From NCBI RefSeq assembly GCF_025641885.1, contig NZ_JAOTQN010000001.1:992001-1056000 (forward strand): 64,000 bases of DNA. The letters are read 5' to 3'. This DNA comes from Pyrobaculum sp. 3827-6 (GTDB lineage: Archaea; Thermoproteota; Thermoprotei; Thermoproteales; Thermoproteaceae). The translations under genes and the position numbers were made by a program. The notes beneath the pieces are model-generated. The model saw only the letters and a program-made list of their open reading frames with translations. It made no database searches and was not told the origin of the DNA. Of the stretch, positions 47,334-55,700 are shown one piece after another (position 1 is the first letter of the stretch; each line of letters opens with the position of its first letter).

Positions 47334-47429
47334 TACCCCCTTTCTACTCTCCGGGCGTCCTGGGGGGCACTGGGCCCGGGCGGGCGCTTAGGCGCGCCCG
47401 GGACGGGGCCGCCCGGAGGGTTGGCGCCG

Positions 47430-47685
47430 CCCCTTCGGCGAGCGCGAAAATAGGCGCGGCTTCGCCTCCCGGTGCCCTCGCGGGAGGCGGGGCGGGCTAC
47501 TGCAGGCCCATGAGTGCATAAACACATCCCTATTTATGAATTAACGATGTAGCGTACGTCAAGCTTCGCCAATTCCGCCTTCTCTAATTCCAAATTTTTA
47601 GATTTGGAAGTGATATAGGCGTCTTTTTCTTTCAACTACCACGGCGCATGGACAGTTCTAAATTACGCAGAGGCGGTGTAACGTC
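47430..47685 (+). repeat. left inverted repeat of the TnpB/GIY-YIG element
   Basis: The sequence matches, in inverted orientation, 49575-49825. A perfect 30-base core is 47516-47545 against 49710-49739. Similarity continues outward (for example the GC-rich stretch around 47471-47500 against 49755-49784) and inward to the ATGCAGAGGCGG-like end near 47675. This repeat also fills most of the gap after the aspartokinase gene; no gene is seen in it. Confidence 0.85.
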
Positions 47686-47690
47686 TCATC

Positions 47691-47737
47691 TACATTCTTC
47701 CTGACTCAACATCGTAGGTTTTTCCTTAATCAGGAAG
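47691..47737 (-). repeat. hairpin at the tnpB 3' end (omega-RNA candidate)
   Basis: Inverted arms ACATTCTTCCTGA and TCAGGAAGAATGT (13 bases each, perfect complements) are separated by about 20 bases and overlap the tnpB stop. A related direct copy lies at about 49491-49545. In TnpB systems the guide (omega/re) RNA extends over the tnpB 3' end and element end, so this is the likely scaffold region. Confidence 0.55.
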
Positions 47738-48931
47738 AATGTCCGATTGCAAGTCAGGAGGAATGTAGAGGGGAGGGTTGAAAGTCGTGTTGGGAAAAAA
47801 GGGGATTATTTCCCGGTACCTCTTCTGGGCCCAGTGTATGGGCACCTCGTCTCTATTTGCTTCAAAGCCGCACTGACACTTTACGCGGCGGTTCGGTAGC
47901 TCCTCCATCTTGGCGCCACATTTGGGGCATATGGTGCTGTACAGTCTCAGCTCTGCGTAGGGCACCCCGTGCCACTCGGCAAGCTCCCTCAGCCTCTTTG
48001 TGAACCTACCTACGTTGAGGTACTTCTTGACGCTTGGCTTCACTCTATCGCTCTCCTTCAGCTCTCTTACGGATTTGTCCTCTGGCGTGTCCACCACGAC
48101 GGCGGCTTTGTACTGCGTTGCCAATTGTACAATCTTCTTTGCCGCCTCAATAGTCCACTGCCTCCAGAGACGCCACAGCCTGCTTTTCAGTGCTGTGGCT
48201 TTGTTACAGTGGACGCCTTTTGTGGAGCAGAGGGAGTCCAGCCTGGCGATCTCCCTCTCCAGGGAGCCGATGTGCGCCAAATCAGGCCTTAAGACGCCTC
48301 TCCGCAGCACCCGCCCCTCTTCAACAACTGCCCAAACAACGCCGTTATGTAAAGAGTTGATATCCACGACAAGAAGCCGCTTGGGCTGGAATGGCGTAAT
48401 TTCTCTGTAGAACACCAGCGCCACATTGAAAGTAGCGATATTGCTACCCCTCCTCTTACCCACCCAAGCCAGGGCGAACTTCAATTGGGCGCCTTCCCTT
48501 ATCCGCTCCTCAATCCACTTTATTTCTGATTTCCTCAGCCTAATCACGATAGTGTTGCCGCGCTGACCGCTCCACTTCCTCACTTTAATCACTTTTTCCT
48601 CTCGGCTTTCTTGACTAGAGACGAAATCCACAAGAACACCTCGACTTTCATCCTCCTCATTGTTGCTCAACCGTAGCTGGACATTAAATGGCAATGGTAT
48701 CCTCCAGATACCATTTTTCAACCCGTTTACCGGAATCAACTTCATAACATATTTCAACTTCTCAGCGAAGTACTTCAGCGGATTCTGCTCCGGCATAGGT
48801 GCCTTGAAACCAGATTTGTACCACTCCGTTGCCCACTGCCGGAATTTCTGTTGAACCTCCAGGAATTTCGCCAACTGCTCAGGCGGGATTTCCTCAACCC
48901 TCCTCTTTATTGTTAATGTTCGGTAGCCCAT
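47726..48931 (-). CDS. tnpB: TnpB RNA-guided nuclease (IS605 OrfB family)
   Basis: 401 residues. The RuvC-like residues appear in order: the Asp in LLVVDINSLHNGV, the Glu in VVVDTPED, a zinc finger (CPKCGAKM, CQCG) and the final Asp in EANRDEVPIHWA. TnpB proteins are guided by RNA from the element end and cut DNA to favour element retention. The start overlaps the GIY-YIG gene by 19 bases, so the two are cotranslated. All key residues appear intact. Confidence 0.85.
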   Translation of the reverse strand: MGYRTLTIKRRVEEIPPEQLAKFLEVQQKFRQWATEWYKSGFKAPMPEQNPLKYFAEKLKYVMKLIPVNGLKNGIWRIPLPFNVQLRLSNNEEDESRGVLVDFVSSQESREEKVIKVRKWSGQRGNTIVIRLRKSEIKWIEERIREGAQLKFALAWVGKRRGSNIATFNVALVFYREITPFQPKRLLVVDINSLHNGVVWAVVEEGRVLRRGVLRPDLAHIGSLEREIARLDSLCSTKGVHCNKATALKSRLWRLWRQWTIEAAKKIVQLATQYKAAVVVDTPEDKSVRELKESDRVKPSVKKYLNVGRFTKRLRELAEWHGVPYAELRLYSTICPKCGAKMEELPNRRVKCQCGFEANRDEVPIHWAQKRYREIIPFFPNTTFNPPLYIPPDLQSDILPD

Positions 48932-49446
48932 GTCCCGCTACGTACACCTCCTAACGTTGAATTAAGCACCGCCTCCTCACTAGTTTCGCCTCTCCAGTCA
49001 GGCGGCGACCTGTCCGCATGCACAACAGCACAGTTCTCCGAACGGCCGCCAGCAGACGCCTCTGCTTGACACGTGAAGAAGCTGGTTGACGAAACGCCCA
49101 CAAGCTTGGCGTATTTAGCCATGGACACGGGCTCCTCCACCGGCTTGTCTCGGCGTCTCTGTGTGTAGAAGAAAGGCGGCTTCCTCGGCTCCGCGGAAGG
49201 CCTCCTCTTGTTGAATGGGGGCTTGAAGACCGCGTGGAGCCACGCCTCCCACATCTCTGCCACCCGCCTCCTCCGCGTGTAGGCCAAGATGATGAAGACG
49301 TCGGCCCTAAGCCCCCTCCTCGCCGCAGAGGAGTGCCCCCGGAGGTGCATGTAAATGTGATCGTAGTAGCCGTCCCGCTTCCCCACCCCCACATACGCCA
49401 CACGCCCCCCGGCGACGGCCAAGTAGACGTAGTGGACAGCCCCCAC
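48913..49446 (-). CDS. GIY-YIG endonuclease-like protein with C-terminal extension
   Basis: Residues 5-80 have the GIY-YIG pattern: HYVYLAV, then RVAYVGVGKR (YVG and catalytic-type Arg 24), a His-rich loop, the Glu in AEMWEAWLHAV (Glu 67) and FKPPFNK with the terminal Asn. Residues 107-125 (VSMAKYAKLVGVSSTSFF) look like a helix-turn-helix, and the tail is Ser/Gly-rich. It lies upstream of and overlaps tnpB. GTG 49446 follows a TTTAAAG box by about 19 bases. Such nucleases nick or cut DNA in mobile introns and repair. Confidence 0.75.
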   Translation of the reverse strand: MGAVHYVYLAVAGGRVAYVGVGKRDGYYDHIYMHLRGHSSAARRGLRADVFIILAYTRRRRVAEMWEAWLHAVFKPPFNKRRPSAEPRKPPFFYTQRRRDKPVEEPVSMAKYAKLVGVSSTSFFTCQAEASAGGRSENCAVVHADRSPPDWRGETSEEAVLNSTLGGVRSGTWATEH

Positions 49447-49490
49447 GCATACGCCAAGGCTTTAAAGCCAACTACGGCATTCAGCTACCC

Positions 49491-49545
49491 CATCTACATT
49501 TTTCCTGGCTCGACCTCAGACGTTTTCCCTGAAACAGGAGAAATA
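49491..49545 (+). repeat. second hairpin copy at the right end
   Basis: This stretch resembles 47691-47737 in direct orientation (ACATTTTTCCTG ... CAGGAGAAAT) but with an imperfect stem. It lies upstream of the GIY-YIG gene and inside the right inverted repeat. Confidence 0.5.
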
Positions 49546-49574
49546 TACGGCGTAAGGTCAGGTAGTTTGTAGAA

Positions 49575-49825
49575 GGGCCGTTGCGCCGCCTCTGCATAAT
49601 TTAAAACTATCCATGCGCCGTGGTAGTTGAAAGAGGGGGGCGCCAAATCCGCTAAATCTAAATTTGAATCAGAGAAAGCGGAATCGGCGAGACTTGACGT
49701 ACGCCGATTGTTAATTCATAAATAGGGATGTGTTTATGCGCGTATGGGCTTGCAATGGTTCGCCCCGCCTCCCGCGAGGGCGCCGGAAGGCGATAATGTT
49801 CTCAAATTGCAATGCCGAAGGGCCG
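49575..49825 (-). repeat. right inverted repeat of the TnpB/GIY-YIG element
   Basis: This is the reverse complement of 47430-47685 with many substitutions and a perfect 30-base core at 49710-49739. It runs up to the start of asd and contains a TATA-like ATTCATAAATA (49714-49724) facing asd, so the element may supply the asd promoter. Confidence 0.8.
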
Positions 49826-49832
49826 GGCGGCT

Positions 49833-54982: not shown

Positions 54983-55700
54983 AAGCCACAGCCTTTAGAG
55001 ATCCTAGGCACTCGTGTACCCCACTGTACATGTGGCTACGCCCTGGCTGAAAGCTTCCATAAAGTCGTACCTATACCTAACCGCGGCCTCTATCTGGAGA
55101 GAGGGGCTCGGCCGCTTCACCACTTAGAGATGCTGGCATACACGCACCAGGTAAACGCCCCCGGAGGGGCTATTTAGGGCGATGGGGGGTGAAGCCGCCG
55201 CGGTGGGGGGGGGGATTCACCGCGATGATCGCGTTCAGCGTCAGAATGTGGCATACACAGCGGCCGCGGGAGCGAATCCCCGCCTCCCGCCGCGTAGGCA
55301 ATGGCACATGATACCCGGACGCGGCGTGTAGACAGTTCCAAGCTATGCGCCTCACAACGCTACGGAGAATTACCGGTCACCTACCTACTTGCAATCTGTA
55401 GCTCTACTTGATACAGGAGAATCTCCAACAGCCAATTTAGGAAAAATAATTGGCGCGTCTCCAGGCGTTGCCAAGCCCCCGGCGTAGTACCCCCTTTTCA
55501 ACTCTCCCGGCGTCTTGAGGAGACCCCGAGGCGTCAGAGAGAAGAAAGGGCTGAATACTTTTCCATTGTTTTACATTTTCCAAAATGGCTCACACGCTGA
55601 TACGGGCGGTGCTCAAAGGCGTGGGGACATGGGCAGGAGGCGGGGGCCCGTGCCGTCGCTCTCGTTGATCCCCGACTTACGCAATGTCCGTAGCCGCAAG
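54983..55700. other. 720-base gap without a recognisable gene
   Basis: The gap contains the promoter of the AMP-binding gene at its left end. Elsewhere it has several short GC-rich inverted sequences (for example around 55190-55230) and a stretch at 55486-55528 resembling 47331-47372. All frames are interrupted or read as low-complexity peptides. No tRNA or convincing C/D box RNA was found by eye. Confidence 0.5.

Follow-up and report, generated by a model that had tools for sequence, protein, structure and literature searches.

A tnpB gene paired with a GIY-YIG nuclease gene inside long inverted arms in Pyrobaculum

In Pyrobaculum sp. 3827-6 (G000), a tnpB gene and a gene for a GIY-YIG-type nuclease are enclosed together by long inverted arms, and six loci, spread over two genomes, carry this pair with the gene order unchanged: the copy in the window (the whole 64,000-nucleotide stretch analyzed), L009, L010, and L011 in G000, and L101 and L103 in the comparison genome G004. 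The preliminary description had proposed that TnpB and a GIY-YIG protein form an unusual mobile unit inside long inverted arms, and this is supported; no Y1 transposase was detected in the genome. We read the unit, with about even confidence, as a composite mobile element that joins a TnpB module with its end, A, to a GIY-YIG module with its palindrome, H, and that would spread by break and copy. Throughout, A denotes the outer, GC-rich part of an arm and H the inner palindrome of ~95 nt; L numbers are individual loci compared, and G002, G003, G004, G006, and G015 are the comparison genomes.

Layout and insertion pattern

Both genes lie where they had been placed before, and their overlap of 19 nt was confirmed (Table 1). 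This overlap is peculiar to the window copy, with the two genes spaced by 6–53 nt in L009, L010, and L101. The inverted repeats, in which three blocks (87, 45, and 161 nt) match at 75%–87%, and the perfect 30-base core within them also proved real; terminal inverted repeats are thus present, in the form of A-H arms inverted on both sides of the window copy. The bounds proposed earlier for the element (47430–49825) were corrected: the left end is placed at 47334, adjoining the stop codon of the upstream gene, because arms aligned from many places share a sharp outer boundary, TRCCCCCTTTCTACTCTCC, and the right arm, truncated by its outer ~115–130 nt, ends near 49826. The H copies carry several TTCCTGA / TCAGGAA motifs, and the TTTAAA box upstream of the GIY-YIG start would be a TATA box. 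Within the arms, only the GIY-YIG gene adjoins tnpB; a serine recombinase, the mark of IS607, is not beside it. Rfam gave no matches within the element (12 sources). Elsewhere in the window (55488–55556), a very short A-ended sequence matches the A end over 33 nt at 85% and is followed ~60 nt on by an inverted partial copy of the end, resembling a tiny gene-less derivative.

Table 1. Features of the window copy, in window positions
Feature	Position	Strand	Basis or remark
Left arm, part A, outer element end TACCCCCTTTCTACTCTCCGGGCG...	47334..47683	-	Sharp boundary common to many copies; empty site in G004; compensatory hairpin changes
Perfect 30-base inverted-repeat core	left 47516..47545, right 49710-49739
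Palindrome H, left copy	47684..47790		Overlaps tnpB 3' end
tnpB, 401 aa	47726..48931	-	Pfam match, alignment
GIY-YIG nuclease gene, 177 aa, GTG start	48913..49446	-	Predicted fold
TTTAAA box, upstream of GIY-YIG start	49461..49466	-	TTTAAA or a one-base variant in 12/12 aligned copies
Palindrome H, right copy, upstream of GIY-YIG gene	49474..49580
Right arm, part A inverted, truncated	49581..49826	+	Outer ~115-130 nt missing

In addition to the window copy, three more long copies and numerous partial ones occur in G000. The GIY-YIG gene is frameshifted in L103 and L011. Comparison with relatives showed that four of the eight insertions searched are absent there (the window copy, L009, L010, and L105); for L013, L014, L051, and L101, the same search resolved no empty site. 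The window site is empty in G004, with no target repeat seen against that empty site, and the flanking genes are joined without the element in six other species. L009, near the 3' end of a dihydroorotase-like gene (the names of host genes at insertions come from reading their translations), has an empty site in G004 and a 7-bp repeat, TACCCCT. L010 lies inside an aldehyde-oxidoreductase-like gene that is uninterrupted in G004, and ~1.1 kb of its target has been replaced. The A-H-GIY fragment L105 has an empty site in G000 and an 11-bp repeat, GACTTTATTTA; it and L009, both truncated, are the only copies with target repeats. The flanks of L101 match different places in G000, and L051 is a short gene-less A-ended element of ~100 bp with both ends.

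Among 31 A ends, a count from which one weak match had been dropped beforehand and in which L102 and L111 share one flank, the outward neighbor was the base A in 21 and C in none. Six of the 31 had a GGGGGYA-like stretch within 14 nt, whereas the 43 control windows averaged 0.58 and did not exceed 2. At L101:6353-6460 and L103:7237-7340, the stretch that follows a 5' fragment of the GIY-YIG gene comes from a host gene and has further matches in G004 and G000; that the flanks are alike at both loci suggests capture or duplication. Between A-type sequences at L107:3218-3643 (G004), the translation repeats FQLSFDFR, which suggests a CRISPR array.

The two proteins and their DNA marks

TnpB matched the Pfam family Cas12f1-like_TNB at 33.1 bits (cut-off 26.3), and the RuvC-I Asp190, the RuvC-III Asp361, and four Cys are invariant in all 12 aligned copies. 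Its motif II has the form VVVDxP, and the usual Glu is absent from all 12; the single profile match to a TnpB-like nuclease of solved structure places a Val opposite the Glu of VED, and VVVDxP also occurs in more distant members of the TnpB subfamily. The cutting activity of this TnpB is therefore doubtful. PADLOC returned weak Csx1 and Cas12f matches, to TnpB only. TnpB has 45 matches in G003, a genome of 1.8 Mb, where most of the longer matches are 40%–46% identical, an unusual expansion.

The GIY-YIG protein of the window copy had no Pfam or NCBIfam match. Its homolog at L111 matched PF01541 over positions 2–78 of 78, below the cut-off, and the relative at L112 gave a GIY-YIG match of 22.4 bits against a cut-off of 22.6. 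An AlphaFold2 model built from 12 sequences was moderate for residues 1–75 and poor beyond (mean pLDDT 55). All ten of its best Foldseek rows were GIY-YIG proteins, with weak E-values (best 0.03), as were all 11 best VIA-align rows, among them UvrC (Z 7.8, 2.6 Å, 70 residues) and I-TevI (Z 5.9, 3.1 Å, 71 residues), the first unrelated row having a Z of 4.0. By this predicted model, the protein has a GIY-YIG fold. Y18 and E67 are invariant in the 12 aligned copies. Position 30, which by comparison with UvrC we take to be the probable catalytic Arg (the mapping of the catalytic Tyr, Tyr, Arg, and Glu is likewise our assumption), is Arg in 8 of the 12 copies; four, the window copy among them, have His. 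Of 45 genomes of the order, four gave a match to the GIY-YIG gene, G006 with a distant relative only, and a search of viruses in IMG/VR for the protein confirmed none.

Both genes are under purifying selection. The median dN/dS was 0.33 for the GIY-YIG domain (10 copies, 44 of 45 pairs computable, leaving out the broken or partial copies L103, L104, L105, and L015) and 0.18 for TnpB (8 copies, 22 of 28 pairs computable). Among the six composite copies, the dS of TnpB is ~0.5–1.4, and for the same pairs it is lower in the GIY-YIG gene than in TnpB (0.29 vs. 1.17 between the window copy and L009), which suggests exchange between copies.

The preliminary description had placed a TnpB omega RNA at 47640–47770, a stretch that proved to be mainly the H palindrome. 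On the window strand, H folds well (z -5.5), as palindromes do by nature, and among 19 copies, chosen from the matches in the compared genomes, covariation was no higher than in shuffles; the copies keep their sequence, not their pairing. H was accordingly rejected as an omega RNA and is probably a protein-binding DNA site, one that the GIY-YIG protein may bind. Covariation lies instead in 47334–47515 on the minus strand, within A. Folding energy gives A no support as an RNA (z -0.2), and RNAalifold on 22 A copies, a hand-made choice overlapping the 31 ends of the target count, found little covariation (-0.76). In a permutation test, which ignores the shared ancestry of the copies, native hairpin halves paired better: none of 20,000 permutations was as low for the main hairpin (21 distinct), and 10 and 73 of 20,000 were for two further stems. 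A is, as far as these aligned copies indicate, a structured end, and the structure may form in RNA or in single-stranded DNA. Because compensatory hairpin changes occur in A and none in H, A is the better omega-RNA candidate and H a likely DNA site; read in the direction of tnpB, A would provide both a candidate omega-RNA scaffold and the right end.

Modules found apart and possible modes of movement

Among 21 genomes, A was found in four, all of which hold the TnpB subfamily at 57% or more, and H in two, which are the two with the GIY-YIG protein at 50% identity or more. G015, outside the 21, has the GIY-YIG gene, H, and A, and gave no tnpB match, so the link between A and tnpB is not clean. 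In G002 and G006, where no close GIY-YIG gene was found, tnpB relatives are 55%–62% identical, and three of the four loci read have an A-type end. Judged from these matches, such an end is common to GIY-less tnpB elements of other Pyrobaculum species. At L172 (G006), inverted repeats of ~200 nt surround tnpB, and another repeated motif replaces H. The preliminary description had tied its reading to tnpB not being mobile without the GIY-YIG gene or the long repeats; this counts in part against it, since relatives with an A end do occur without that gene, and one of them, L172, also has long inverted repeats.

The GIY-YIG gene in turn occurs without tnpB at L012, L102, L111, and the orthologous pair L016/L106. 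At L102, L111, L016, and L106, it is followed by a gene for a protein of ~450 aa, stop-broken in some. Most of the 50 rows matched by a model of this partner were LAGLIDADG proteins (best Z 6.7 and 6.5, under 8), which the predicted structure resembles, and the partner had no LAGLIDADG-family Pfam match. In two genera, at L102:2781-5451 and L111:3398-6310, the GIY-YIG gene and the LAGLIDADG-like gene are bounded on one side by a tRNA-like sequence and on the other by a repeated tRNA 3' portion, as if the unit had been inserted at a tRNA gene; the tRNA-like sequence was read by eye as tRNA-Thr with introns, and ARAGORN did not call a tRNA. G000 and G004 both have a divergent GIY-YIG copy close to the same tRNA-Glu (L016:2546-2618 and L106:3725-3797); it has lost its first GIY tyrosine and probably goes back to an old insertion common to the two.

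Many tnpB elements are without a recognizable transposase of their own. A search for Y1 transposases at E 0.01 found them in none of five genomes; the control was positive in 6 of 14, and the G000 assembly, in 13 contigs, may miss a gene. Serine recombinases are present in all five, none of them beside the window tnpB, and the four recombinase loci fetched were without this kind of TnpB, a GIY-YIG gene, or a clear H. Beside three of these loci, no A or H match was better than E 0.1, and the fourth, L247, had only a 57-nt, 75% match to A. In the composite reading, the GIY-YIG protein may make a break, and the element might then be copied in by repair; copying would start at an A end and often stop short, such an early stop leaving truncated second arms, variable repeats, and target deletion, and TnpB would cut sites without the element and so protect it from loss. 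Break and copy fits because the repeats vary, target is deleted at L010, and one outer arm is frequently lost. Because L009 has its intact A end on the GIY-YIG side and not on the tnpB side, we discarded a retroelement-like scheme in which a single 3' end is fixed.

The A ends of G002 and G006 imply that a mover other than the GIY-YIG protein may act on such ends. An enzyme that recognizes them could thus move the tnpB element in trans, with the GIY-YIG gene as an acquired passenger that aids retention or competes with other nucleases, a reading we regard as a serious one, at somewhat under an even chance. Short gene-less A-ended elements such as L051 would suit it, as would serine recombinases in every genome searched; however, the near absence of A and H from the recombinase loci argues against it, and none of the A-ended elements among the loci read has a recognizable transposase. 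That the GIY-YIG protein is itself the transposase, binding H and cutting near GGGG..TA, with TnpB or the LAGLIDADG-like protein as an exchangeable retention enzyme, appears unlikely.

Two further accounts, versions of which were raised in the preliminary description, seem very improbable. Were the composite a dead remnant of two unrelated elements lying side by side, one would look to the modules found apart, which upholds that part of the proposal, to the frameshifted GIY-YIG genes of L103 and L011, and to the age of the copies implied by the dS of TnpB; yet the order is the same at six loci, insertions are absent in G004, and the purifying selection on both genes means that the composite is not a chance remnant. 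A homing element in the strict sense, in which the GIY-YIG protein cuts one cognate site and homologous repair copies the element in, strikes us as equally remote. The fold, with I-TevI among the matches, and the fact that L102 and L111, from two genera, adjoin tRNA sequence of the same kind would agree with homing, but it is not supported, because the tnpB-bearing copies sit in unrelated sites (the window copy, L009, and L010).

For the composite reading, which we continue to prefer, the interest lies in a tnpB tied at six loci to a second nuclease that H, as its DNA mark, accompanies from genome to genome, and in the pairing of that same GIY-YIG nuclease elsewhere with a different, LAGLIDADG-like second nuclease. 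Movement without the usual transposase can be tested here in purified form, at high temperature, as only a small protein and a short palindrome are required.

Comparison with known systems

The tnpB elements of the IS200/IS605 and IS1341 types have hairpins near their ends and an omega RNA made 3' of tnpB; IS200/IS605 elements have a Y1 TnpA, in the element or elsewhere in the genome. The element described here shares with IS200/IS605 a TnpB with RuvC and zinc ribbon and hairpins near the ends, and its A end likewise lies 3' of tnpB. In contrast to that family, it was found in a genome without a detected Y1 TnpA and has long inverted arms and a GIY-YIG gene before tnpB; IS200/IS605 elements have neither terminal inverted repeats nor target duplication, whereas inverted arms are present here; as to target duplication, the window copy shows none, and short repeats occur at two truncated copies. 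IS607 differs in carrying a serine recombinase beside tnpB, where this element has the GIY-YIG gene only.

In the open-licence literature, we found no report of a prokaryotic element that combines a GIY-YIG gene with tnpB. The paREP2b repeats of Pyrobaculum, described as putative transposons (PMC3558965), are, like this element, a repetitive Pyrobaculum family, and the available part of that text mentions no link to TnpB or GIY-YIG; the alternative partner of the GIY-YIG gene may belong to paREP2b. The archaeal casposon MetPsy-C1 has terminal inverted repeats and a GIY-YIG nuclease among its other genes (PMC4046053), but it has a Cas1 integrase and a polymerase, and TnpB is not mentioned in the portion of that article available. 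The giant-virus Mariner element PGv-1 carries both a TnpB homolog (Fanzor1) and a GIY-YIG nuclease (Bao and Jurka 2013; PMC3627910); it is a single-copy element in a virus of a eukaryote, with a Mariner transposase, TIRs, and TA duplications, a set of features that distinguishes it from the Pyrobaculum element.
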